Shown one piece after another: positions 26,706 to 34,249 of a stretch of 64,000 bases of DNA. Both the position numbers and the translations under genes were made by a program. Under the pieces are notes generated by a model. The model did no database searches, was not told where the DNA came from, and was given only the letters and a program-made list of their open reading frames with translations. The stretch's first letter is position 1. Each line of letters begins with the position of its first letter. Origin of the DNA: Gordonia lacunae (lineage in GTDB: Bacteria; Actinomycetota; Actinomycetes; Mycobacteriales; Mycobacteriaceae). Location: assembly GCF_002149015.1 (NCBI RefSeq), contig NZ_NGFO01000011.1:1-64000 (forward strand), read 5' to 3'.

Positions 26706-26775
26706 CGACCACGACCGAGCCCGGTCCGGTCGGTCAACGTGTGCACAAGGCAGAGACTTCGGAGTCGTCCTGGGG

Positions 26776-26781
26776 TAGTCT
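26776..26781 (+). promoter_or_regulatory. -10 hexamer before the decayed module copy
   Basis: TAGTCT lies 53 bases before the ATG at 26835. The intact copy has TAGGTT at nearly the same distance from its first gene, suggesting that the promoter region was part of the duplicated unit. Confidence 0.4.
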
Positions 26782-26834
26782 GCGATCGCGTTTTCGCAAC
26801 TGGCAGAGAGCCTGCGTGCGCTCGGACGGGGGAA

Positions 26835-26975
26835 ATGGTGGGCGAACGGTTTGCTGTGGACGAGGTCGGCACGATCTACGAGGTCGGAGCCACGCTCGCG
26901 CAATGTGGTTCCGAGATCGGAAGTCTCTGGGCGACTGAAAGGCCCTGGTTTCTGCAGTGCGCGGCCCAGTCGTAA
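26835..26975 (+). pseudogene. Truncated EspC/WXG100-like gene (decayed module copy)
   Basis: The ATG at 26835, preceded by GGGGGA, encodes 46 residues before TAA. Residues 1-32 (MVGERFAVDEVGTIYEVGATL...SLW) match the first 31 residues of the intact gene at 30585, with about half the positions identical, including the C-SE-LW stretch. After the Trp the similarity stops and the frame ends at 26973-26975. The C-terminal two thirds of the protein are lost. The sequence beyond the stop stays open in the same frame into the next fragment, so a deletion or degeneration joined two genes. A longer reading from 26739 adds unrelated residues. Confidence 0.75.
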
Positions 26976-27011
26976 AAGCCATTCTCGACGTGTCCGCGCC
27001 AGAAACCAAGC

Positions 27012-30893: not shown

Positions 30894-33403
30894 TGTCGCG
30901 TCCGTCGCGTTCCGTCGTCAACGGGTGGGACCTGATGTCCCTGGACGCTGCGGCGAACGCACTCGACGCCGGGGTGGATGGTCTTCGGAAACAAACGCAG
31001 GCGATGGCGGATGCGCCGATGAGGGCCGGCGACTCGAAGGGGTGGGTCGGCGCATCGCAACTCGGATGTGAAGCCCGCGCCGGCTCAGATCGAGTCGAGA
31101 TCAACAAACTGGGCGCCGATCTCACCCACGCTGCCAACGTCCTGCGAAACACTTCGTCAGCGATCAGCCCGAATCGCACCACGGCGCTGCTTCGCGCGCT
31201 CGGCCTCGAACGCGACAGGTTCAGCGTTGCCGACGACTGGACGGTGCGCGACACCCGCGACTATGCGGCCGAACTGGCGGACGTGGAGGTCGGAAGCGCA
31301 ACGGAGCGTTCGATTCTCGACGCTCGGGCCGCGCGCGCCGAGGAGGCGAGGACGGCGACACTCTCGCTCCAATCCCTGGCCGATCAGATGGGCGAGGACG
31401 ACCGTAACGGGGCGCGAGTTCTCTCGGCGGCCTTCGGCGATGCCGAAGGAAACGCGCCCCTGGCGTCGAGCTACTCACCGGGCCAGGCGAGTATCGACGT
31501 CCAGGCCATCATGAGTGGAACCGCCACGAAAGAGCAGAAAGACCGGTTCTTCCGCGCCACCGGCCTCACCCCGGAACAATCCGCGGCGTTGGCGCGCGGC
31601 GACCACGCCGTCATTCCCAAGGAGCAGTTCGACTATTTGAAGGCGATCTACACGCCGAGTTGGGGTGGCGGTCCCGACGGGCAGCCGTTGTCCCTCGGCG
31701 CCTTGGAGTCGTTCGGCGACAAGTACACCGGCGCCGAGCGAGAAAGTCTGAAACAGAGTCTCGCCGACGGTGTGTACATGCTCGGCAACCGCCACCTGCG
31801 GACCGAGCAGACCGACTCGAACGTGTTCGCCGAGATCTGGGGGACGAATGCTCCGTTCGTCACCGGCGGATTGAACCAACTCCCGGCGCCCCTACGTGAC
31901 GTGTTGAGCAGTCCCGCCGCAAGCAAAGGGCACGTGACAGTTCCGGATTCGGGCCCACACTCCGGTGGCCACAGGTCGGTTACCGATCTGAAGACCTTCG
32001 ATGACCTCAAGACAGTGATGGACATCCTCGAGCACCGTTCCGTCGACTCCCCGGGTGGAATGTACGGCTCGGAGTCCGTTCAGCTGGGAAGCGACGTCGA
32101 CCGAGCGTTGATGGTTCGAGCCGGTGAGCTGGCAGCGTTCTCTGGCGGTGAGCTCGTGTCGAATCCGGGATTCTTCGACCACAACGACGTGTCCAAGAAC
32201 GAACTCGAAGGTCTCATGATCCGGATGCTCGACGTTGCAGGCAGTGATCACATCGCGGTACACGATGCGGTGATGTCTGCGACCGGTGGCCAGGTGAGCA
32301 ATTCGATGCCCTCATCGTTCGACCTCACAGGCACCGAACGGTCCTTCAAGGACGCTGAAGTCCTCAAACACCTGTTGACGTTCGACTGGACCGACAAGGC
32401 GGGGCACGAGAACGACGGCATCAACAGACTCTTCAACTGGATGCCCGGTGCGGCCTACGCACCCGACGGCAGTCTTCCTGAAGCTGTGCTCGAAAGCCAG
32501 CGTGCGGGCAGTATCTCGACCGCGCTGGCGCAGTACTTCGGCGACAACAAAGATGCGCTCATCGACATCGGAGAGAGGAAGCCGGCGCTGGGCGAACTCA
32601 ATCCCGAGCTGACGCGCACGTTGGCCTCCGCGATCGGCTCGCACACCGCTGTTCTGGCGGGCGCCGATCCCGAACTCTTTCACACGCATGGTGTGTCGAA
32701 AGTTGACGTGAACGACCTGAAAGCAACCTTCGAGATCCTCAATTCTGATGCGACCGCGGGAAGAACAGTCAACTCCCTGACCGCCCTGCAGATCGACGTC
32801 ATGCAGCAGGAGTTCGGCAAGAACCCGCACGACTACGGGCTCGGCGAAGTCACCGGACGGTTGGAAGGAGCCATGATCGGCGGATTGGACGCGCACATCG
32901 AGGAAACGAAGATCGACGGCAGGCACCTGGCAGCCCACGACGCGGCGGTCGCGGGCGCCATGTTCGACAGTGCGAAGACGCTTCTCACCGCCGTTCCGGG
33001 CCTCGATCCCGCTGTCAAGCTGCTCATCGACACCGCGGCGCCACAGGTGAAGCTGGATCTGTCCGGGCTACCGACCGACCCGGACACGATCAAGGCCGAC
33101 CCGGAAATTCAGCAGCTGCGCAAAGACATGTTCGACGACGATGTCAATCCCAACGCAAAATACGTGCAGATTCTCGCAGGATACTTCGAGGCCCACCCGG
33201 AACTGGCGGATGATCCCGGCTTTCGGGATCTGTTCTCGGGTGACAGCAACGCAGATTTCGACGAAATGAAGCGGACCGGTGTAATGGCTAGCGTCACTAG
33301 CGAGAGCCGGGCCGGAACGTTCATTCAGCAGAAACTCGCTTCGGATATCAACTCTTTCGCACTACGGCACAACGAGAACCTAGAAGATGTGTACAAAAGG
33401 TAG
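30893..33403 (+). CDS. 836-aa WXG-headed protein with long helical-repeat body
   Basis: No enzyme motif recognised. The N-terminal ~190 residues are helical with W51-V-G53 in GWVGASQLGCEAR, like the WXG100 fold, which points to type VII export with the 102-aa partner. The remainder (about 200-836) is acidic and helical and resembles actinobacterial proteins annotated as TPR-repeat-region-containing; the stretches FFDHNDVSKNELEGLM (near 430) and LFHTHGVSKVDVNDLK (near 600) suggest internal repetition. There is no signal peptide or membrane segment. The C-terminal end is conserved in the decayed copy, so it does not behave like a swapped toxin tip. The stop lies 17 bases inside the lipoprotein gene. 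Confidence 0.75.
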   Translation: MSRPSRSVVNGWDLMSLDAAANALDAGVDGLRKQTQAMADAPMRAGDSKGWVGASQLGCEARAGSDRVEINKLGADLTHAANVLRNTSSAISPNRTTALLRALGLERDRFSVADDWTVRDTRDYAAELADVEVGSATERSILDARAARAEEARTATLSLQSLADQMGEDDRNGARVLSAAFGDAEGNAPLASSYSPGQASIDVQAIMSGTATKEQKDRFFRATGLTPEQSAALARGDHAVIPKEQFDYLKAIYTPSWGGGPDGQPLSLGALESFGDKYTGAERESLKQSLADGVYMLGNRHLRTEQTDSNVFAEIWGTNAPFVTGGLNQLPAPLRDVLSSPAASKGHVTVPDSGPHSGGHRSVTDLKTFDDLKTVMDILEHRSVDSPGGMYGSESVQLGSDVDRALMVRAGELAAFSGGELVSNPGFFDHNDVSKNELEGLMIRMLDVAGSDHIAVHDAVMSATGGQVSNSMPSSFDLTGTERSFKDAEVLKHLLTFDWTDKAGHENDGINRLFNWMPGAAYAPDGSLPEAVLESQRAGSISTALAQYFGDNKDALIDIGERKPALGELNPELTRTLASAIGSHTAVLAGADPELFHTHGVSKVDVNDLKATFEILNSDATAGRTVNSLTALQIDVMQQEFGKNPHDYGLGEVTGRLEGAMIGGLDAHIEETKIDGRHLAAHDAAVAGAMFDSAKTLLTAVPGLDPAVKLLIDTAAPQVKLDLSGLPTDPDTIKADPEIQQLRKDMFDDDVNPNAKYVQILAGYFEAHPELADDPGFRDLFSGDSNADFDEMKRTGVMASVTSESRAGTFIQQKLASDINSFALRHNENLEDVYKR

Positions 33404-34196
33404 GCGCATCGCAGGAATTGCTGCCAAAAAAGTCCGTGGCCTGCACTTGACGGTGCTGCTTCTCATGGTCCTTTCAGTAGCTGGTTGTTCCAGCACTTCG
33501 TCACACAATGAGCAGCCGACGAACAGTTCTGCCGTCGCTCCGGCAGGAAAGCGCTTGCCGCCTGATCTGGACATGTCCTTCCGCTGGATTCCTACGAACG
33601 TTCTCGGCCTCGAGACCCCGGAAGGGTCGTTTGTCCGGGCGTACACGGAGTCATTCGAACTTGCCTTTGAGGGGCAGTCGATGGAATGGGGATATCCCGG
33701 CTTCGCGGCGGCATCGCCCCCAGGCACCGACGAGCGAATCCGCTTGGTGGCGAGCGACAGTCAAACAAGCAGGGTGGTAAACACGCTGTTTCTGCGGCCT
33801 CTGCGTCGCGAAGACTCCGATGACCGGAGTCGGTTGATTGTGTGCCGCAGCGAGCTATTGTCCATTGAGCAACGGTCCGATGGCGGGGGCGTCACGTGGC
33901 GCAATATCGGGAATCGCTGGGCTTATCCAATCACGATCGAGTTCGTCCGCACGGGCGAGAGGTTGCCGCCTGCTGATCAGCACGGCCCTCAGACCACACC
34001 CTTCACGTCGATGTTCGGCAGCTGGCAGGTCTCGTTCTTCGATCGCTTGGGAATGGGTCCAGAGAATCGAGCCGACCATATCGCGTGCAACGCCTTGCCG
34101 CCGAACCCCGACCTTCCGAGAGTCGGGGTCGAGACGGGACCGGAGCCGTGGCCGGTACTACCGCCGTCTCCCGGCTGGCCGGCGAACGGTCTCTGA
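33387..34196 (+). CDS. Lipoprotein, second paralogue of the duplicated module
   Basis: Function unknown, 269 aa. A basic N-terminus and hydrophobic stretch lead to a good lipobox VAGC with lipid Cys34. The soluble domain shares with the 27371 paralogue the FRW.PT block (65-69), ESFELAF.G.S.EWGYPGF (88-106), LRPLRRED and a C-terminal PWPVLPPSPGW. The ATG at 33387 lies inside the end of the 836-aa gene, so expression is coupled. GC is clearly lower than the chromosome around it. A role as surface partner, chaperone or protector of the secreted pair is only inferred from operon order. Confidence 0.8.
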   Translation: MCTKGRRIAGIAAKKVRGLHLTVLLLMVLSVAGCSSTSSHNEQPTNSSAVAPAGKRLPPDLDMSFRWIPTNVLGLETPEGSFVRAYTESFELAFEGQSMEWGYPGFAAASPPGTDERIRLVASDSQTSRVVNTLFLRPLRREDSDDRSRLIVCRSELLSIEQRSDGGGVTWRNIGNRWAYPITIEFVRTGERLPPADQHGPQTTPFTSMFGSWQVSFFDRLGMGPENRADHIACNALPPNPDLPRVGVETGPEPWPVLPPSPGWPANGL

Positions 34197-34235
34197 GACT
34201 GCCGAGGGCTTTCGTCCGTGGACAGGGCCGCGCCC

Positions 34236-34241
34236 TACACT
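34236..34241 (+). promoter_or_regulatory. -10 hexamer for rpe, leaderless arrangement
   Basis: TACACT lies eight bases before the rpe ATG at 34250, consistent with a leaderless transcript. It gives the rib cluster its own promoter downstream of the island. Confidence 0.5.
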
Positions 34242-34249
34242 TGTCGACC

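Follow-up and report, generated by a model that had tools for sequence, protein, structure and literature searches.

A probable effector-immunity cassette with a lipoprotein as candidate immunity protein between rsmB and rpe of Gordonia lacunae

The window analysed here is a stretch of 64,000 nucleotides from Gordonia lacunae (contig NZ_NGFO01000011.1, positions 1 to 64,000), in which an accessory island lies between rsmB and rpe. By open reading frame (ORF) reading, the last base of rsmB is 26705 and the start of rpe lies at about 34250-34256. The island carries, in this order, a broken cassette, an ArsR/AHSA1 gene pair, a DUF222 gene and an intact cassette of three genes, encoding a small EspC-like protein, a long protein with a WXG-like head and a lipoprotein. 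A preliminary description of the window had reported that sequence low in guanine and cytosine (GC) splits rsmB and rpe, and that it holds one intact and one broken three-gene set in the same order. Both points held: the GC fraction is 0.59-0.67 in kilobase windows over 26500-34499 and 0.66-0.75 around it, with the ranges just touching. We propose that the island cassette is probably a chromosomal polymorphic effector-immunity cassette of the type VII secretion (ESX) kind. The features of the intact copy are as follows.

30585..30893, + strand: EspC-like export partner, 102 residues from ATG (open frame from 30546); family match PF10824
30893..33403, + strand: long effector candidate, 836 residues; PF23275 (TPR_23) at residues 222-516, 2.3e-35
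30926..31162, + strand: WXG100-like head of the long protein, approximate, the residues being set equal to profile positions 12-90; EsxB chains matched in the profile search, E ~1.6e-4
33387..34196, + strand: lipoprotein A, candidate immunity protein, 269 residues; lipobox Cys34
31850..34249, no strand: exchangeable block, comprising the back half of the long gene and the lipoprotein gene; identity to genome G129 falls at about 31850 and is restored at rpe

In the intact copy the small and long genes overlap by 1 nt, and the long and lipoprotein genes by 17 nt. EspC (PF10824, E up to 0.05) was matched by 16 of the 30 aligned members of the small family; the window's own small protein had no match at the cut-off and gave only PF25547 (E 0.038). 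At the YxxxD/E site the acidic residue at +4 was present in all 30 members, and the first position was Tyr or Phe in 21. PF23275, whose TPR repeats are "EspA-like" by Pfam name, was carried by all 34 aligned members of the long family, and five of them also matched WXG100. In the heads of these 34 rows, W51 of the W51-x-G53 motif was conserved in at least 90% and G53 was invariant. When the family profile was compared with solved structures, EsxB structures matched the N-terminus (E ~1.6e-4). The EspC and WXG identities first assigned to these genes are supported by the EspC and EsxB matches. In the lipoprotein family, the lipobox Cys34 and C153 were invariant in 38/38 rows and C234 was present in at least 90%; this family had no Pfam relative of note and no usable match among solved structures (PDB sequence search). 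No Pfam match was found to a lipase domain in the long family or to DUF576 in the lipoprotein family, and none of the 34 long-family members matched an LXG domain at E 0.01. A pore-forming long protein was considered and rejected: the 34 members had no clear transmembrane segment, with hydropathy maxima of 0.68-1.63, where 1.6 is the usual line for a membrane segment. Two members just reach 1.6, in a mildly hydrophobic stretch near residue 697 where many members have their maximum. Structure models were of poor quality.

To see how the three families are distributed, 151 genomes of the family were searched and part of the matching places was fetched. The long protein was found in 41 genomes from 16 of 31 genera and the lipoprotein in 26 genomes from 15 of 31. 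We examined 62 loci, mostly chosen by long-protein matches or as rsmB-rpe junctions, and counted long frames of at least 600 residues (n = 48). A family lipoprotein lay downstream on the same strand in 43 of the 48, and an EspC-like gene was detected upstream in 37. Because of these counts, the EspC-like gene, the long gene and the lipoprotein gene are one unit, and rare co-occurrence, which would have spoken against the preliminary description, was not what we found. Two or more lipoprotein matches, some partial, followed 14 of the 48 long genes. In the reverse direction, the long gene was present at eight of nine further loci chosen by lipoprotein matches; at the ninth (L121) none of the three families was detected.

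Some loci departed from the simple trio. Four tandem family lipoproteins stand behind one long gene in L124 (2577-7108). At L072 (8724-10110) the long gene precedes a tandem pair of lipobox proteins that fall outside the family profile, as though one immunity class had taken the place of another. L128 holds three long genes and several lipoproteins in a span of 16 kb, with genes on either strand; its first long gene is split over two frames and its last runs to the end of the stretch.

The cassette consists of two blocks, with the EspC-like gene tracking the front half of the long gene and the lipoprotein gene tracking the back half. Compared with G129, the window is 67-87% identical over 29300-31849; identity drops to 40-66% in the back half and the lipoprotein gene, and is 78-89% from rpe. 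Against G117 identity is 54-73% over 30500-34249 with no such step. Identity between the cassettes L052 and L053 (genus g10) is 99% for the first 220 residues and 36% for the last region. Over 903 usable cassette pairs, the correlation was 0.78 between back half and lipoprotein, 0.65 between front half and lipoprotein and 0.81 between front and back halves. The small gene correlated at 0.91 with the front half versus 0.81 with the back half. The partial correlation between back half and lipoprotein given the front half was 0.56 (0/2000 permutations as high), and that between front half and lipoprotein given the back half was 0.06 (222/2000). In the 62 pairs whose front halves are at least 50% identical, the correlation with the lipoprotein was 0.91 for the back half and 0.27 for the front half.

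Trees of the two halves, built from 14 cassettes, conflict. The front-half tree groups the window with G184, G164, G129 and the second G197 cassette at 89/92, a group that the back half rejects (p of the approximately unbiased test, p-AU, 0.00035); the back-half tree joins G129 and the second G197 cassette at 98/99, which the front half rejects (p-AU 0.011), and both p values are indicative since the groups were picked after seeing the distances. Between G181 and G153 the proportion of differing synonymous sites (pS) is 0.29 in the front half, 0.79 in the back half and 0.75 in the lipoprotein gene. Since silent changes rise along with amino-acid changes, the data speak for a diverged block imported by recombination rather than for fast selection.

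The first cassette of the island is a broken copy with the following parts.

26835..26975, + strand: first EspC-like gene, a remnant cut short by deletion; 88% identity over 75 codons (26739-26963) to an open frame of G197
27018..27374, + strand: tail of the first long gene; 78% identity to residues 721-837 of the first long protein of G197
27371..28168, + strand: lipoprotein B, an open frame whose effector is lost, orphan immunity candidate; family match and G197 alignment

This copy aligns to the first cassette of G197 (L099) as two blocks, 26700-26938 (97.9%) and 26939-28300 (87.8%). About 2.3 kb is missing between them, so that the small gene lacks its end and only the tail of the long gene is left; the lipoprotein B frame is open over all 265 codons. 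Hence the copy previously called decayed has suffered one large internal deletion that spared the lipoprotein gene. The overlaps, previously called the same in both copies, agree only roughly, since that of the lipoprotein gene is 4 nt here versus 17 nt in the intact copy. The step in identity from the first 239 bases to the remainder suggests a recent local exchange. Orphan lipoproteins also occur at five Gordonia loci (L084-L088), where no long gene was found within the stretch fetched; the surroundings are clearly conserved at three of them (L084, L086 and L088). The one at L086 is a third family lipoprotein of the window's own genome (G000:C50:10122-10880), with no long gene nearby and surroundings common to G117 and G129.

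The flanking and passenger genes of the island are listed below.

25332..26705, + strand: rsmB, left flank (ORF)
28220..28699, - strand: AHSA1/SRPBCC protein, passenger (PF08327)
28696..29073, - strand: ArsR-type regulator, passenger (PF12840, NF033788)
29120..30487, + strand: DUF222 protein, passenger (PF02720)
34250..34954, + strand: rpe, right flank (ORF)

A joined RsmB/Rpe query matched 59/59 Gordonia genomes searched. A long gene lay between rsmB and rpe in nine of them (G000, G184, G164, G198, G117, G181, G197, G153 and G129), a count obtained by combining long-gene and RsmB/Rpe matches by coordinates, in which a single query could miss a distant long gene. The G197 site (L099) holds two long genes. 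The window's broken copy corresponds to the first cassette there, which follows rsmB directly; the second long gene of G197 is without about the first 60 residues and without a detected small gene. In G170 (L101) the DUF222 gene adjoins rpe with no cassette, an empty site, and in G155 (L102) only the end of a lipoprotein gene is kept as a remnant. The ArsR/AHSA1 pair stands between both cassettes in two genomes (window 28220-29073; L099 6944-7791). In the window the DUF222 gene separates this pair from the second cassette; it was not found in G197. Neither the pair nor the DUF222 gene appeared in the preliminary description.

A mobile element at the rsmB-rpe site was rejected. No tRNA was found in the window, no tandem repeats in 26000-35000 and no long end repeats, the island having only imperfect direct repeats of 18-25 nt. 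The empty site and the remnant suggest gain and loss by recombination instead. With housekeeping genes on both sides, no tRNA and no long end repeats, the window cassette is not prophage-borne. The preliminary description had called the module mobile or recombining: recombination is borne out by the identity break, the tree conflict, the partial correlations and the pS jump, and mobility is seen in prophage and plasmid relatives and not in the window copy.

The same three genes were found on the Mycobacterium abscessus plasmid pGD54, on the prophages prophiFSAT01-1, prophiFSQJ01-1, prophiGD79-1 and prophiFVLQ01-1, and on phage Aegeus, whose gp34 is annotated as a polymorphic toxin immunity protein. 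In all six fetched phage or plasmid cassettes the hidden Markov models (HMMs) of the long family (4.9e-87 to 4.5e-58) and the lipoprotein family (4.4e-43 to 3.4e-35) matched and the third gene had a lipobox-like motif; the small-family HMM matched five of the six. According to the accessible parts of the published accounts, MabR cassettes form a second type of polymorphic toxin-immunity (PT-Imm) cassette with no identifiable toxin or immunity domain (PMC9434293), exchange of the cassette type of prophiGD79-1 has been described (PMC9934374), and such cassettes have been named PEST, for phage-encoded ESX-secreted toxin (PMC10654092). Two PEST cassettes, those of prophiGD43A-6 and prophiGD17-1, were toxic without the immunity gene and the immunity gene gave protection (PMC10654092); these two prophages were not among the phage records matched here.

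In the genome of the window one EccC lies over the family cut-off, on another contig than the cassette. Its neighbours are EccD, an Rv3446c-type protein, ribosomal protein S9 and GlmM, which we take to be the setting of ESX-4. Dependence on ESX-1 is not indicated, the sole EccC over the cut-off being in this ESX-4-type locus. The earlier statement that no ESX genes are near the window cassette, and that it would use a system encoded elsewhere, is consistent with this location; in a relative (L061, 4844-10491), though, EccC and EccD lie directly beside a cassette with two lipoproteins. A review, consulted in part, gives non-mycobacterial actinobacteria such as Gordonia and Nocardia no type VII system but ESX-4 (PMC11217815), whereas two other Gordonia genomes here, G104 (C6, C22) and G141 (C26, C38), each gave two EccC matches over the cut-off. 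Pfam also found two WXG100 genes in the window's genome (G000:C45:199416-200009, in L089), on another contig than the ESX-4 locus and near an amino-acid transporter and ahcY.

On sequence grounds, the window cassette is best read as a chromosomal relative of the published prophage toxin-immunity cassettes. The conserved head with its partner, the back half exchanged together with the adjacent gene, the tandem and orphan copies, and the homology to published cassettes argue for an effector-immunity pair. Beyond the gene order, family links, block structure, conflicting trees, exchange, orphan and tandem lipoproteins and single EccC in an ESX-4-type locus, which were observed directly, we propose the following mechanism. 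The EspC-like protein would bind to the long protein at its WXG-like head, and both would leave the cell together through ESX-4, predicted to be the cell's only ESX system. The back half would then act on the envelope of nearby cells. From its anchor outside the membrane, the lipoprotein would bind the back half and protect the producer and its kin. Exchange of the back half together with the lipoprotein by homologous recombination would make strains differ in type, and tandem and orphan lipoproteins may protect against other types. The envelope is the most likely target, by analogy, because the lipoprotein is expected to protect outside the cytoplasm, as does TilA of Staphylococcus aureus in the portion of that study available (PMC10730906). 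The "own lipoprotein partner" of the preliminary description does travel with the long gene, and is best refined to an immunity protein.

Several observations weigh against this reading. In the window's small protein, Val replaces the Tyr of the export motif. In the structure search with the long family, EsxB ranked below a designed repeat protein and repeat proteins of the TALE type; these higher-ranking hits look like repeat matches. Five of the 48 long genes had no family lipoprotein (none seen at L063, L064 and L080, another family at L072, a contig end at L111), and 11 had no detected EspC-like gene. EccC lies over the cut-off in 149/151 genomes, so with ESX near-universal its co-occurrence is uninformative and could not be used to establish ESX dependence. 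In addition to the tree tests being indicative, the 89/92 front-half group was not starred, and the second G197 cassette, one of its five rows, is incomplete at the front. For lipoprotein B against its G197 counterpart, the synonymous rate (dS) is 0.22, the nonsynonymous rate (dN) 0.08 and dN/dS about 0.36, a weak sign of looser constraint.

The remaining such points would also suit a different explanation, which we regard as unlikely: a surface structure, such as an adhesin, scaffold or secretion accessory, in which the exported long protein is held by a lipoprotein anchor, co-variation comes from binding, diversity arises under phage or host pressure, and nothing is killed. The 34 long-family members carry TPR_23 and WXG100 only and no toxin or enzymatic domain. 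Homology extends along the whole long protein, and the back half is shared across the family instead of giving way to unrelated domains; a clear loss of conservation was confined to the last region (0.18 versus 0.24-0.27 over 595 pairs). In ten pairs compared, dN/dS was 0.05-0.31 wherever dS was unsaturated, which indicates purifying selection with no positive selection seen. The Pfam name of the repeats is EspA-like, and EspA is a host-directed substrate of ESX-1. However, single long genes followed by two to four lipoproteins fit immunity better than an anchor, as do orphan lipoproteins without a long gene (L084-L088; window 27371-28168), and the prophage relatives are annotated and published as toxin-immunity cassettes.

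It is quite improbable that the cassette is a self-contained selfish module, in which the long protein harms its own maker unless the lipoprotein is kept, and which maintains the cassette and mobile elements with no delivery to neighbours. Relatives do lie on prophages and a plasmid, and the two published PEST toxins were toxic when expressed without the immunity gene (PMC10654092). However, one would not expect a lipoprotein outside the membrane to neutralise a toxin in the cytoplasm. The head of export type and its partner have been conserved, and the window's orphan lipoprotein outlived its effector. That the island is merely decaying, with its genes together by chance, is hardly credible: its lower GC, the broken copy, the empty site in G170 and the remnant in G155 would fit, but the trio is conserved over many genera, contrary to chance by the co-occurrence counts, and dN/dS is 0.05-0.31.

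If the cassette is an effector-immunity pair, its wider role can be put forward tentatively. The TPR_23 "EspA-like" protein, its EspC-type partner and the lipoprotein could possibly form a kin-recognition weapon widespread in Mycobacteriales, with ESX-4 delivering envelope-acting antibacterial proteins and the lipoproteins giving type-specific immunity. This would give ESX-4 a function in non-pathogens and recast part of the "EspA-like" family as antibacterial. The locus supplies candidates for the ESX-4 cargo, its export partner and the immunity protein, and a single EccC of this genome passes the cut-off, so that gene removal could test both the cargo and the antibacterial role.

Among known systems, EspA/EspC of mycobacterial ESX-1 shares with the window an EspC-family partner and a TPR_23 protein named EspA-like by Pfam, whereas in the window the third gene encodes a lipoprotein, the host system is ESX-4 and the back half is polymorphic. 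Rv2078-Rv2079-lppJ of M. tuberculosis presumably has the same gene order; a literature search for it gave no match. TslA/TilA of S. aureus resembles the proposed arrangement: the toxin is a type VII substrate that has small helical partners, and its immunity protein is an extracellular lipoprotein whose tandem copies vary. It differs in that the toxin is a lipase with reversed domain order, secreted by the type VII secretion system b (T7SSb), and in its DUF576 lipoprotein (PMC10730906). The third protein of the window family is a lipoprotein in the same way (lipobox Cys in 38/38), and its immunity role is predicted. The LXG toxins with Lap partners and TelC/TipC (PMC6193138, PMC9600955) also have partner genes first, a conserved export head, a variable back and an immunity gene last (PMC10730906), and TipC genes occur in several copies (PMC9484751). 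They belong to the T7SSb of Bacillota, unlike the window family, which has no LXG match. Immunity proteins with an NTF2-like fold (Imm-NTF2) are a further published class (PMC3482391).

The closest likeness is to the PEST/PT-Imm cassettes of M. abscessus-complex prophages, in which a small WXG-type gene is followed by a WXG-headed large protein and an immunity gene (PMC10654092, PMC9434293, PMC9934374, PMC8191103). Their front and back parts recombine and the immunity gene varies with the back part, and both traits were found in the window family. The differences are that the small family here is EspC-like rather than WXG100 proper, that the window copy is chromosomal rather than prophage-borne, and that its immunity candidate is a lipoprotein. 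The word "lipoprotein" has no occurrence in the accessible main text of PMC10654092 or the accessible parts of PMC9434293 and PMC8191103, and one in that of PMC9934374, for an LpqN-like protein; in this literature, covered mostly in part, the lipoprotein nature of the immunity family was not found in print. Genes 80-82 of prophiGD79-1 and the second MabR type (prophiFSAT01-1, FSQJ01-1 and FVLQ01-1) are homologues of the window family. The prophage cassette type of PMC9434293 (accessible in part), in which no toxin or immunity domain had been recognised, is tied in this way to a chromosomal family, with a predicted site of action outside the cytoplasm.

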